From assembly GCF_029784135.1 (NCBI RefSeq), contig NC_073744.1, positions 78,161,935 through 78,225,934 of the forward strand: a stretch of DNA of 64,000 nt, given 5' to 3'. Origin of the DNA: Toxorhynchites rutilus septentrionalis. Its lineage: Eukaryota > Arthropoda > Insecta > Diptera > Culicidae. The translations under genes and the position numbers were made by a program. How positions within the stretch are numbered: position 1 is the stretch's first letter; every line of letters begins with the position of its first letter. The notes beneath the pieces are model-generated. The model did not search any database, was not told the DNA's origin, and worked only from the letters and a program-made list of their open reading frames with translations. Shown here piece by piece: positions 5,303 to 56,097 of this stretch.

Positions 5303-5554
5303 CAGGAAGTGGGTTATATCTATGGTATAACCGCAATGGTGACGTAGGACTATCGTTGATTCAGTGATCATTTATTTGAAGTTGAATCTGAATCCATTCT
5401 GAATGAAAAATAAATGAATATTCGAGGGACTTCGTAAACGAGAGCGTTACGTTAGAGGTACAAGGTTTTATGCATCCAATATTGGATACGAAAATATCCT
5501 ACTGATGAGGAAGAATAATCTTCAGAAGCTTTCCTGCTAATTGCCCTTGATTGA

Positions 5555-6990
5555 AAAATCACAGAACGAAATGTATTTGGTCGCAGTGTTATATGGTTAG
5601 AAAACATTAAAATAAACTCTTTCGCTTGCATGTTATTTTCAAAGCCAGGGGAACTGGCAGATTATTTTGAAGCAGCGATATCTTTCCGGATTCTTCTCGA
5701 AGTCCATCACCAGTGGTTAATGCTAACTCGATGACCACCAGTTAATTGCACTTGATTGAAACATCACAAAACCAATTGTATTGTATTTTAAACCAATTGT
5801 ATTTGGTCGCAGTATTATATGGATAGAAAACGTTAAAATAAACTCTGATAATTGCACTTGATTGAAAAATCACAAAAACAAATGTATTTGGTCGCAGTGT
5901 TATATGGTTAGAAAACATTAAAATAAACTCTTTCGCATGAATTTATCAATTCTCAGGGGAACTGGCAGAATATTTTTCAGCAACGATAATATTCTTCCGG
6001 AATCTTCTCGATGCAGGATGGCGTTTAAACGAAAGAAGTACCGCACGTATATATGTGTGTGTGTGTGTCGGCTGCTTTGATATCTCAAACGGAACCGTTT
6101 TTCGGTGCTGATACTCTCTCGGTCATCTTCTCTTCTTCTGATGGATCGGTTTTTCTGCGCTCCCTCACAGTTCCAAACTAACTGAATGCGTTTCATGTCA
6201 GGTAATGAATCTCTTGATCCCTCGCCGTACAGCTCGTCCAGCACGTTCAGCTTTTTCAATAACGATGTTTTCTTGTCGATGTCCTCACGAAAAATGATTG
6301 CGTTTCATGATGATGATGTTGAATTAAATAGGCTTTAAACTTTTCAGTTCATTCGCCTCTAACAGAAAGCGTTTCATCACCAGAATATCGCTTAAGTATG
6401 CTTTTTGTCCGTGATTGAATCGAGAGAAGGTATGGTTTACGATAGTAATTTGGAGGGGAAATTAGAGACGAATGAACTCTCTGAGTTTGAAACATTCAGC
6501 GACTGAGCAATAATCGATTGAGAATTATGTTTTCCGCGATGCGAAACATTTTCCGTTGCGCGCACATCCAATATTGGAAACGAACATATCCTACTGATGG
6601 GGAAGAAAAATCTTCAGAAGCTTTCCTGCTAATTGTACTTGATTGAAAAATCACAAAACCAAATGTATTTGGTCGCAGTGTTATATGTTAGAAAACATTA
6701 AAATAAACTCTTTAGCATGAATGTATTTCTCAATTCCCAGGGGAATTGGCAGGGTATTTTTCAGCAACGATTAGTTCTTTCCAGATTTTCCTCGATACTC
6801 TAAGCCCACCAATGGTTAATGCTAACTAGATAACCACCTGTCAATAGCACTTAATTGAAAAATATTTGGTCGCAGTGTTACATGGATAGAAAACATTAAA
6901 ATGAACTCTTTCGCATGAATGTATTATATTTTTCAGTTCCCAGAGGAACTGGCAGATTATTTTTCAGCAACGATTGAATCTTTCCGGAAT
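5555..6990 (+). repeat. Four PGELA/GTCGCAG cassettes in HCE-1
   Basis: A cassette of roughly 110-130 bp recurs near 5647, 5957, 6741 and 6941. It runs from a block around AAATGTATTTGGTCGCAGTG, through AAAACATTAAAATAAACTCT, to GGGGAACTGGCAGATTATTT. The last block translates on the plus strand as P-G-E-L-A or close variants, matching the PGELAKHAV segment near the end of histone H2B, though residues after it diverge. The same cassette occurs four more times in HCE-5. An H2B origin is plausible but not proved. Confidence 0.5.
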
Positions 6991-7084
6991 TTTGTCGATG
7001 CTGAATGCCATCCAAACGAAGAGTTCCGCACGTGTATGTGTGTCTGTGGCGGCTGCTCCATACTCTTCCCGGGGAACCGTTTGT

Positions 7085-7240
7085 GGCATCACTCTCCTCC
7101 TGATGGATTCCCTTCTGGCCTAAGGTGCACAAACAGGCTCTTGGTGGCACCGTTCACCCGCGCTTTCATGATAAACGAAGAGCTTCACCACAACAGCGAC
7201 AACATGCTCCAATCGATGTTCAATTATAACTGAGTGGATT
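7085..7240 (+). pseudogene. Probable histone H2B fragment (HCE-1)
   Basis: On the plus strand, near 7120-7152, the codons give K-V-x-K-Q-x-x-x-x-T, similar to H2B's KVLKQVHPDT. This is followed by sequence alignable with the AMSIMNSFVNDIFERIA codons (ATGA...AGAGCTTC...CATGCTCCAATCG). A close copy at 55700-55815 in HCE-5 has the D-T pair. Indels and stops destroy the frame. A TATA-like GCTTATATA lies at 7256-7264. The identification is moderate and made by eye. Confidence 0.4.
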
Positions 7241-7513
7241 TCCGAGCGGCGCTCGCTTATATACCGATTGGTGATTTCAATAGCCTGTTTTGAAAGCAAA
7301 TTTAAGGCTATTGAAACAAGTTTTTGGATCAAAAAGTAACAAGTATATAACGCGTAGACATTTTATCTTTCGAATGAAGTGTTTATCATACCGTTTCGTT
7401 CAGTTGTTTAAGAGCTATTAACGCTCAAAATCTCGGTCTCCGGCGTAACGCTTTCGTTTTCGAAACTTTGATTTTACACCCCGGTATAGAAATGAAAGAC
7501 GTAGTCCTACGTC

Positions 7514-7938
7514 AAAACTGAAAACCCCTGTTTTATGCGATTTTCAGAGTTAATTTTGTTTTTCACCATTTAGTATGAATGTGATAAAAATCAGACTGAT
7601 TGCATAATATTCACTGACCCCGAAAATTTAATGACAAAACCTCTGTTGCTTTTTTGGAGTATGTCCCAGATCAACAGAGTTAATAGTTTGTTCCAAGCTG
7701 GAAAACCTGAATTCACGATGCTACATCAAGAGTTGAAAGATTTTTATTTTATCATTCTCATTCATATCTACTCTCACCTTGCTTGTCCTTACATGTTGTC
7801 CTTATATGAATCTCACGTCGTTCCAATGACCAATGCTATCTAATTTGAAGATCATTTGAAAAGCGGCATGAATTTTTAGGTTGGAAAAGCAGCAGAAGAA
7901 ACTATCAAAACAATGGACAGCGAAAGGCAGATCATTTT
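7514..7938. other. Spacer between HCE-1 and the ITmD37E element
   Basis: No feature supported. It is the left flank of the Tc1-like element and ends in its TA target dinucleotide (7939-7940). Confidence 0.4.
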
Positions 7939-8069
7939 TAAAGGGTGTGTCACATCAAATTGCATCACGGAAAAAACGCTGTAGAAATTCACCCAGTAGA
8001 CCGATCCTTTTGAAAATTTTAGACAGTAAAATAAAAACTATTAAACAACTTTTGGCATTTTCTTTTTAT

Positions 8070-8152
8070 TCATACTTCGAGCCCAAGCCCGTATGCTCGC
8101 ACCTTCCTCTTTACCCCGTCCATAAGGTTCTGTACAACGTCAGGTTGTAGTT
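8070..8152 (-). pseudogene. ITmD37E transposase, C-terminal piece
   Basis: This minus-strand piece encodes LQPDVVQNLMDGVKRK and then VRAYGLG before a stop at 8070-8072. That is the usual C-terminal tail of Tc1-like transposases. It is separated from the rest of the gene (15188-16113) by the 7-kb HCE-2 insertion in an A6/T6 run. Confidence 0.7.
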
Positions 8153-54249: not shown

Positions 54250-54256
54250 TATATAA
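54250..54256 (+). promoter_or_regulatory. TATA box of the captured H3
   Basis: TATATAA about 70 bp before the H3 coding homology, within GGTATATAATATCACGC. Position fits a histone core promoter carried along with the gene. Confidence 0.45.
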
Positions 54257-54319
54257 TATCACGCTTCCTTTGCTTTCGTTCATTTCTTACTCTACTCTCG
54301 CACCGTGAGGACTTGTTTG

Positions 54320-54674
54320 TTTGGGACCAAGAAGACAGCTCGTTAGTCTTTCGGTGGTAAGGCACCATGAAAGCAGCTCGGATAAGCGCACCAGCCGCAG
54401 AAAGCGTGAAGAAGCCACATCGCTATCGACCGGGAACTTTAAGTGAAATTCGTCGCTTTCAGAGGTCGAACAAACTGCTGATCCGCAAGCTACCTTTGCA
54501 GCGTTTGGTTTGTGGAATTGCCCGGAACTTCAAAACCGACTTGCTCGTCAAACTTCGCGGTTATGGTACTGCAGGAGGCCTATTCGAAGATACCAATTTG
54601 TGTGCTATCCACGCAAAGCGCGTCACATTATGCCCAAGGATGTCCTTGGCCCATCGTATCCGAGGAGAGCGTGC
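54320..54674 (+). pseudogene. Histone H3 pseudogene (HCE-5)
   Basis: Near-continuous similarity to H3. Codons for TKKTAR, stop, SFGGKAP, stop, KQL are followed, after a deletion of about seven codons and a frame change, by a frame from 54367: SAPA, VKKPHRYRPGT, EIRRFQRS, LLIRKLPLQRLV, then LFEDTNLCAIHAKRVT and RIRGERA. The start codon is lost, nonsense changes fall near K9 and R17, and the alpha-2 region (QSSAVMALQEA) is scrambled. The natural stop is lost too. No intron. With a TATA box before and a stem-loop after, the whole gene was captured from genomic DNA. It cannot encode a functional H3. Confidence 0.93.
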
Positions 54675-54697
54675 TATTAGCTTAGCATATAATCAGC

Positions 54698-54713
54698 AGC
54701 CCTTTTCAGGGCT
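54698..54713 (+). terminator. Histone stem-loop after the H3 pseudogene
   Basis: AGCCCTTTTCAGGGCT: perfect six-pair stem with TTTC loop, 24 bp after the end of H3 similarity, where a histone 3' processing signal belongs. Confidence 0.85.
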
Positions 54714-55694
54714 CCTAATTTGATGTATTAGAGTTCAGGAAAGTTTTTTGCGGGCCGAACTGAAGGGAGCATTTAGCGAAAATCGTGTTGTCGATGACAA
54801 TTCGATACCGATAGGTGCCATGGATATGGATTTTGATAGTGAAGAATATGAAATACATGACATGATGCAGTGAATATTTCCCCATATCGAAGAAATCACT
54901 TTGATGAAACTGCATTATAAAGTTATTTGTGTACTAATGGCGCAATCTATAGTCGATTCTAATTTGCGCTGGGTATTTCCTCGGAGGATTCGATTCCTCC
55001 TTTGAGCGTTATTAATCTGTTTCCGGCAAAAGGAAGTACTATGATAATCACATTATTCGGAAGATAAAATGAAGATGTTTTCTGCTAATTTCCTTCAACC
55101 TTCAAACATCTCTTTCTCCCGTTTGTCGTTTTTGCGTTCGCTAATCCTTTCTCACAACACCCATTTCTCGTTTGAGAAACTGTTGAGTAAACATCGTTTG
55201 CCAGTGCGCGTAGAGCGGGAATTCCTAAAGATTCATTGCACCTCTAATAAATTGCCGAAAGACGTGGTCTTACGTTGATCGCAATTGATTGAAAAATCCA
55301 AAACGAAATGTATTTGGTCGCAGCAATATATGAGTAGGATGCAAATAATCGCTCGAAAATGACATGATTTTCGCGATGTGTAACATTTTCCGTTTTTCAT
55401 GTTATGCATCCAATATTGGATACGAAAATTATCTACTGATGGGGAAAAATAATATTCAGAAACTTTCCTGTCAATTGCGATTGATTGAAAAATCACAAAA
55501 CCAAATGTATTTGGTTGCAGTGTTGTATGAATAGAAAACATTAAAATAAACTCTTTCGCATGAATGTATTTTTCAATTCCCAGGGGAACTGGTACGCGGA
55601 ACGCGGAACGAGGGTTCCGCGCGTGTATGTATGTGTGGCGGCTGCTCCGATGTTTCAAGCGGAACCGTGGCATCACTCTCCTTCTGGTGGATTC

Positions 55695-55830
55695 CCTTCT
55701 GGCCTAAGGTGCACAAACAGGCTCTTGGTGACACCGTTCATCAGCGCTTTCATGATAAACGAAGAGCTTCACAACAACAGCGACAACATGCTCCAATCGC
55801 TGTTCAATTATAACTGAGTGGGTTTACGAG
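55695..55830 (+). pseudogene. Probable histone H2B fragment (HCE-5)
   Basis: AAGGTGCACAAACAGG and, after CTCTTG, GTGACACC translate as K-V-x-K-Q-x-x-x-D-T, matching H2B KVLKQVHPDT at the fixed positions. ATGA...GAGCTTCA...AATCGCTG follows like the SIMNSFVNDIFERIA codons. It is a sister of 7085-7240 in HCE-1. Heavily degraded. Confidence 0.45.
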
Positions 55831-56097
55831 CGGCGCTCGCTTATATACCGATTGGTGATTTCAATAGCCTGTTTTGAAACCAATTTTAAGGCTATTGAAA
55901 CAAGTTTTTAGATGAAAAAGTAACAAGTATATAACGCGTAGACATTTTATCTTTCGAATGAAGTGTTTATCATACCATTTCGTTCAGTTGTTTAAGAGCT
56001 ATTAACGCTCAAAATCTCGGTGTCCGGCGTAACGCTTTCGTTTTCGAAACTTTGATTTTACACCCCGGTATAGAAATGAAAGACGTAGTCCTACGTC

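Follow-up and report, generated by a model that had tools for sequence, protein, structure and literature searches.

The stretch of DNA analysed here, 64,000 nucleotides (nt) from the mosquito Toxorhynchites rutilus septentrionalis (C1:78161935-78225934; hereafter referred to as the window), contains five mobile elements, E1 to E5, four of which carry degraded histone genes. We scanned the window for element ends, using the 16-bp palindrome GACGTAGGACTACGTC for the 5′ end (A end) and a hairpin followed by TGACGTAGGACTA for the 3′ end (B end). The scan returned five A and five B ends, which form five pairs and agree with the five elements that an initial annotation, made from the letters alone, had placed between positions 5303 and 56097; an extra B call at 16779 is unpaired and lacks the usual hairpin. 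The ends had been described as the same two types throughout. They instead form two sets, which define family I (E2, E3 and E4) and family II (E1 and E5), and the end sequence that the families have in common is limited to the GACGTAGGACTA core. An exact 12-bp core (TAGTCCTACGTC) also lies at 63522-63533, with no paired end nearby.

Searches with tblastn revealed degraded H2A in all three family-I elements, as five fragments each in E2 and E3 (E 7e-12 to 2e-15) and in its best-preserved form in E4, and degraded H3 in E5 (Table 1), as the initial annotation had read them. H2B had been considered probable in two elements, but no H2B coding match was found in any window element by tblastn to E 1, nor by Pfam in six frames of E1, E5 and E4 and three frames of the first part of E2; H2B-side flanking DNA is present instead. 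Pfam is insensitive to decayed H2A, calling no histone in E4 or in the first part of E2. The histone content ascribed to all five elements holds for E2 to E5 but not for E1, which has no histone coding match by tblastn or six-frame Pfam and whose matches to histone-cluster DNA consist of a dispersed motif with 8,509 genome copies and a 69-bp intergenic stretch at 81% identity. Matches to H4 in the window are just two 17-residue H2A look-alikes (tblastn, E 0.36). A weak H3 match (tblastn, E 0.60) lies outside the elements at 60188.

Table 1. Elements, ends, histone-derived segments and stem-loops of the window (positions are those of the window)
Feature	Position	Strand	Description	Basis
E1	5303..7513	-	family II; 3′ B end left, 5′ A end right	end scan, tblastn, Pfam
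E2	8157..15187	+	family I; five H2A-bearing stretches, repeat unit 1318 bp	end scan, repeats, tblastn
E3	21265..28296	-	family I; other host than E2	end scan, repeats
E4	44291..46737	+	family I; usual length (family median 2473 bp), best-preserved H2A	end scan, tblastn
E5	52210..56097	-	family II; H3 antisense to the element's 5′-3′ direction	end scan, tblastn, Pfam
5′ palindromic subterminal repeat (A end) of E2	8157..8172	+		
Other A ends	7498-7513, 28281-28296, 44291-44306, 56082-56097		one mismatch in 44291-44306	
B end (3′ end) of E2	15142..15187	+	inverted partner repeat, hairpin GGTTATGTC/GACATTACC, then T run	
Degraded H2A in the 1318-bp unit of E2	10001..10218	+	repeats at 11319, 12637, 13954; diverged first copy 8675; mirrored in E3	
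Degraded H2A in E4	46079..46350	+	stops and frame change	tblastn E 8.9e-26 for first part
Degraded H3 in E5	54326..54675	+		tblastn E 8e-36; Pfam PF00125 2.2e-10
H2B 3′ flank in E4, antisense to H2B	45747..45836	+		88.9% to C3 histone cluster over 90 bp
H2B-H2A intergenic DNA with TATA box and 5′ part of H2A, E4	45853..46306	+		78.6% to C3 histone cluster over 485 columns
Stem-loop of the histone 3′-end type with AAAGAG, E2	14990..15034	+		RF00032 41.0 bits, gathering 34
Stem-loop of the histone 3′-end type with AAAGAG, E3	21418-21462	-		RF00032 41.0 bits, gathering 34
Stem-loop of the histone 3′-end type with AAAGAG, E4	46540-46584	+		RF00032 38.2 bits, gathering 34
Mariner-like host of E2	7938..16268		52-bp identical terminal inverted repeats	name from reading the sequence

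All five elements have a palindromic subterminal repeat at the 5′ end (mismatched in E4), an inverted partner of this repeat near the 3′ end and a 9-bp inverted repeat, or stem-loop, near the 3′ end; the E2 palindrome folds better than shuffled sequence, with 2 of 200 shuffles as good. Helentrons and their non-autonomous relatives (HINEs) are characterized by palindromic subterminal inverted repeats (subTIRs), a partner repeat 38-60 bp from the 3′ end (in mites), a 3′ stem-loop, T-rich insertion sites and T strings at the boundaries (PMC4067079). Across the 902,557,243 bases of the genome searched, we counted 16,162 family-I and 15,561 family-II 5′ ends, and 9,591 family-I and 18,825 family-II 3′ ends, numbers of ends and not of complete elements, and the reversed controls gave 0 in each case. 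In the listed part of C1, an exact, correctly oriented B end lies no more than 12 kb from 77 of 96 exact family-I A ends (median length 2,473 bp) and from 57 of 96 exact family-II A ends (median 1,624 bp).

The genome also encodes likely partners for both families. The Helitron_like_N profile PF14214 has 132 genome matches, some of them in long open frames. The family-I partner is a 1,674-aa open frame present in two copies (C2:6.60 and 26.08 Mb), with Helitron_like_N (PF14214, 1.4e-22) and PIF1 (PF05970, 1.7e-33) domains, and is followed by the family-I 3′ end (97.6% identical to E2 over 211 bp). The family-II partner, a 1,564-aa frame (C2:320.57 and C3:178.04 Mb), has Helitron_like_N (PF14214, 1.3e-23) and endonuclease (PF14529, 1.6e-6) domains and precedes the family-II 3′ end (83% to E1 over 112 bp). 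The Rep regions of the two Helentrons are 66% identical. Among the best 120 of 257 protein relatives are sequences from Aedes, Sabethes, Topomyia, Ochlerotatus, Armigeres, Malaya and Culex, at 57-70% identity and some over partial length, and one at 48% from the mite Galendromus. The loci listed by alignment searches for relatives elsewhere are all distant helicase relatives (at least 50 loci at 44% or less in one, 28 loci in another); the family-I A end has no exact match in IMG/VR, and the family-II A end none in GTDB genomes. Besides these two, a Helitron-like Rep frame 1,169 aa long is present at C1:176385530 and C3:142205524.

Because the elements combine a palindromic 5′ repeat, its inverted partner, a 3′ hairpin and T-run insertion sites with resident Rep-encoding Helentrons that have the same 3′ ends, we regard it as highly probable that E1 to E5 represent two families of non-autonomous Helentrons, an assignment to superfamily that the initial annotation had left open. 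Family I and some members of family II contain degraded histone DNA, and both families are likely copied in rolling-circle fashion through the Rep-helicase-endonuclease of larger Helentrons sharing their 3′ ends; the rolling-circle mode itself is what the Rep domain would predict. Several observations weigh against this assignment. The mismatched E4 palindrome does not fold, the partner repeats stand some 33-37 nt from the 3′ end, a little closer to it than the published distance, and the 3′ hairpins are no stronger than shuffles, 14 to 26 of 200 of which fold equally well (four tested). A wrongly placed B end accompanies 15 of the 96 family-I and 21 of the 96 family-II A ends. As for the partners, a Pfam scan of 1,500 aa of the family-I protein gave no endonuclease call, and its endonuclease tail is assigned from 58% identity with the domain of family II; the family-II frame has one TAA in the matched stretch, and its 3′ match of 83% is below the >95% published for HINE-partner pairs (PMC4067079). 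Furthermore, the upstream DNA read, 2.6 kb for family I and approximately 2.7 kb for family II, did not reveal the 5′ end of either presumed partner.

The 3′ ends of E2, E3 and E4 contain a histone-type stem-loop that exceeds the gathering threshold of RF00032 in all three. The initial annotation had these stem-loops arriving with the captured genes, but the terminal stem-loop of family I recurs in the family-I Rep-encoding Helentron (L043:639-683, 40.5 bits), where the stem starts 472 nt past the stop codon and approximately 180 nt before the 3′ terminus, and the module that family I shares with this Helentron begins about 18 bp before the stem. As the same stem-loop is found in a Rep-encoding Helentron, the terminal stem-loop of family I belongs, on sequence evidence, to the Helentron and not to a captured histone gene. 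A weaker match is located 288 nt past the stop codon of the family-II Helentron (L045:943-988, 22.9 bits, below the gathering threshold of 34; E 0.02). In both Helentrons, a 6-bp stem with a 4-nt T-rich loop is followed after about 15 nt by AAAGAG, as in the histone 3′ ends used for comparison. We scanned 726,672 strand-bases (the window and all loci to L047, which had been selected for their histones and elements) for a paired stem, a T-rich loop and AARGAG, a motif set after the sites had been seen. Of the 40 matches, 27 fall in histone loci, 11 at family-I ends and one in each Rep-encoding Helentron. We know of no report of histone stem-loops in transposons, and made no literature search aimed at them.

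The stem-loop is kept in 10 of 11 aligned family-I 3′ ends (it is absent from L037), with 0 of 160 variant cells versus 116 of 3,811 across the aligned region; however, variation is almost as low in the 100 columns that follow downstream (13 of 1,100), and we dropped conservation as proof of function. The stem-loop in the Rep-encoding Helentrons has, in our judgement, about an even chance of being a passive relic of captured histone DNA with no role in expression. The invariant cells prove little in view of the conserved downstream columns, two AATAAA signals are present as well in the 3′ stretch of family I, and the family-II match falls below gathering. Against a relic stand the same place of the stem-loop in two Helentrons with 66% identity between their Rep regions, the preserved pairing and AAAGAG spacing, and the absence of both AATAAA and ATTAAA from the 542-nt 3′ stretch of family II. 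We propose, as a possibility that we hold less likely than not, that the transposase of mosquito Helentrons is made from a histone-type mRNA, whose 3′ end would be formed by the stem-loop and a U7-type element, confining transposition to S phase, and that the stem-loop served as a bridge to histone arrays, where captured DNA would have joined to give thousands of histone-bearing copies. The weight we give to an S-phase 3′ end derives from the place and layout of the stem-loop in two Helentrons, not from its conservation.

H2A is a constant feature of family I in the copies sampled. All 11 copies of a family-I sample, taken at about every tenth of 100 listed A ends (C1:1.4-20 Mb, exact ends only), contain H2A at E 0.01 or better, and in seven of them a B end lies no more than 3 kb away. 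The outcome that the initial annotation had named as refuting, a lack of histone sequence in most genome-wide copies, thus does not hold for this family. A 28-mer derived from H2A, which differs from each of the nine real H2A stretches compared by 9 mismatches or more, occurs at 8,237 genome places at up to 3 mismatches, with tandem copies counted repeatedly. In the window, E2 and E3 are separated by 6 kb in inverted order and differ by a single indel across 7.03 kb, a similarity that could reflect an artefact of assembly, or gene conversion between neighbours in inverted order, instead of two transpositions. We consider this unlikely: the two elements lie in different hosts, each broken at the element ends, and a copy at C1:1.42 Mb is 99.3% identical to E2 over 2,968 bp.

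Family II differs from the histone-built family of the initial annotation, since H3 is a feature of part of it and most copies seem to lack H3. An H3-derived 28-mer has 3,858 genome places at up to 3 mismatches, versus 15,561 family-II 5′ ends, and its exact form lies inside 8 of the 57 paired family-II elements (two of the eight share one B end). Of 100 listed exact H3 places, 15 are on C1 below 9.52 Mb, and every one of these lies on the inner side of an exact family-II A end and within 5.1 kb of it (chance 0.052 each); in the eight elements to which these places belong, the nearest H3 is antisense, at 1,421-1,477 bp. Most of the degraded H3 loci retrieved through an H3 match (L015-L018 and L020-L028) have an A or B end beside H3, but the end scan found no fitting end near H3 in L020 and L028. 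L019 was rejected as an element, being an intron-bearing H3 gene. L015-L017 (C3:35.78-35.85 Mb) are complete family-II elements with sense H3 inside larger near-identical repeats, at spacings of about 8.8 and 5.4 kb. Among 32 H3 neighbour pairs less than 1 kb apart, 23 are inverted (minus then plus), six are plus-plus, three are minus-minus and none is plus then minus. This bias, together with the PIWI-interacting RNAs from histone H4 mRNA reported in Aedes (PMC6411831), might suggest that the cargo is kept because it affects the host, perhaps by yielding antisense or hairpin histone RNA; we doubt this strongly, given that family-I H2A has a single orientation and contains stops, as drift predicts.

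The five elements are insertions at T-rich sites. As the initial annotation had noted, at least four A or T flank both sides of every element, and T/A runs of 4 to 6 are present at 10 of 10 junctions. E3, E4 and E5 lie in hosts that resemble long interspersed nuclear elements (LINEs), named from reading the sequence. Excision of the element together with four A/T leaves 6 A at E3, 4 T at E4 and 4 A at E5, and the host frames then read openly across each junction, with 60 to 101 codons on each side in 300-base flanks, compared with 12 to 51 on the shorter side for the wrong frames; the mariner-like host of E2 is uninformative on the number of Ts gained. Four A/T gained at each of three empty sites would be expected of cut-and-paste, gene-capturing DNA transposons with a 4-bp TTTT target duplication (Pack-TIR type), yet a gain of 1 or 7 bases fits the host frames equally well. 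Moreover, the elements lack terminal inverted repeats, their ends differ and have a common inverted core at unequal distances from the end, and a Rep-PIF1 open reading frame precedes the same 3′ end, all of which make such transposons very improbable.

The H2A cargo probably came from a histone array of the C3 type, and we aligned E4 to a real histone cluster of this type at C3:233.67 Mb. E4 and E2 retain the H2B 3′ flank and the H2B-H2A intergenic DNA, which bears TATAAAA in E4 and in the E2/E3 units, and the H2B coding part between them is missing. Because both segments align collinearly with the C3 cluster, the histone part of E4 is, judging from this alignment, captured genomic DNA and not mRNA; a histone-cluster source and carried TATA boxes had both been anticipated. 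Processed pseudogenes made by LINEs and later joined to a transposon, for which the LINE-rich genome (by reading) and the LINE-like hosts could be cited, are virtually discounted by this collinear H2B flank and intergenic promoter DNA and by a captured segment that runs past the transcription start into promoter DNA.

A motif near GAGGCGAATGAACTG, common to E1, E4, E5 and histone-cluster DNA at up to 98%, was tried as a captured promoter and rejected as a dispersed repeat (8,509 genome copies). The short palindrome-like motif GAGGCGAATGAACTGAAAAGTTTAAAGCCTC, with the same count of 8,509, lies upstream of H3 genes of the C3 cluster as well. The genome has at least two types of histone cluster: C375 (L009-L011), with a period of about 19.6 kb, and C3:233.65-233.68 Mb (L012-L014), which contains both a 3.76-kb unit and units of roughly 21 kb. 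The C375 type shows matches in its coding parts and in the dispersed motif. In the C3 cluster, a family-I-type A end (one mismatch) with a T run lies 0.87 kb from H2B in two of three readable H2B flanks (L013:9748 and L030:8720; the second H2B of L014 has none), and no B end was found near these A ends in the end scan of the fetched loci. Degraded H2B is dispersed elsewhere in the genome (at least about 80 matches, some overlapping), as is H4 (33 matches, some perhaps H2A look-alikes).

In the mechanism that we propose for the two Helentron families, Rep would nick at the A end and replicate through to the B end, and non-autonomous copies would be moved in trans by the Rep-encoding Helentrons. 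The H2B-H2A and H3 DNA may have been captured from a histone array of the C3:233.6 Mb type, and tandem growth (E2/E3) and inverted H3 pairs (family II) would have arisen after capture. The stem-loop and AAAGAG could form the 3′ end of the transposase mRNA in S phase.

Two other repeats of the window lie apart from these elements. The segments 50746-51337 and 61245-61836 are 592-bp direct copies with 100% identity, possibly long terminal repeats or ends of another young element, and 37748-38031 is self-complementary with a below-cutoff small nucleolar RNA-like Rfam match (ceN45, 37 bits versus 60) and probably represents a foldback repeat.

Helentrons are generally seen as capturing genes sporadically; here, captured histone DNA makes up the body of a highly abundant repeat. 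If every 5′ end marked an element of median length, family I would occupy about 40 Mb, a figure obtained by arithmetic and not a measured total. Annotators should be aware that the H2A- and H3-like matches of this genome include thousands that are transposon cargo. A histone-type 3′ end on transposase genes would, if functional, constitute a direct link of a eukaryotic rolling-circle transposon to S phase.

Histone capture by a Helentron is already known from Culex, where some fragments were assigned to smart00428, a model named H4 superfamily there and one that we take to be an H3 model. Helentron-Cq-32A of Culex quinquefasciatus has eight copies with fragments of the H4 superfamily (smart00428) and H15, and its authors stated that histone capture was undocumented in other organisms (PMC4067079). 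The initial annotation had named no described mosquito family assembled out of several different histone genes. With the Culex case the kind of element is known, but the cargo and scale are new within the literature searched, the covered parts of which yielded no further histone capture by a Helentron beyond Culex. New here are the H2A cargo with promoter DNA and the H3 cargo, the copy numbers and, without a literature search on this point, the histone-type 3′ end after a transposase open reading frame. Like Helentron-Cq-32A and the Culex HINEs, the present families are mosquito Helentrons with palindromic subTIRs, a 3′ stem-loop, T strings, some tandem repeats and histone fragments with stops and frame shifts; unlike them, they carry H2A with H2B-H2A promoter DNA (family I) and H3 (part of family II) and have about 16,000 5′ ends each (PMC4067079). 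The words UTR (untranslated region), polyadenylation and S phase are absent from the main text of that paper. The satellite-bearing HINEs of the oyster Crassostrea gigas are likewise non-autonomous Helentrons with internal tandem repeats, but that study screened units of 100-500 bp, whereas the unit here is 1318 bp of histone-cluster DNA (PMC7492417). DINE-1 of Drosophila similarly comprises very high-copy non-autonomous Helentrons with subTIRs and a 3′ stem-loop, although the account of it in PMC4067079, in the parts covered, describes no histone body. Finally, the Helentron stem-loop resembles the 3′ end of replication-dependent histone mRNAs (RF00032) in its 6-bp stem, 4-nt loop and AAAGAG about 15 nt downstream, but follows a Rep-helicase-endonuclease open reading frame, and its stems, GGUUCU-AGAACC in family I and GGUUCU-AGGACC in family II, compare with GGCCCU-AGGGCC, GGCUCU-AGGGCC and GGUCCU-AGGACC at the histone loci.

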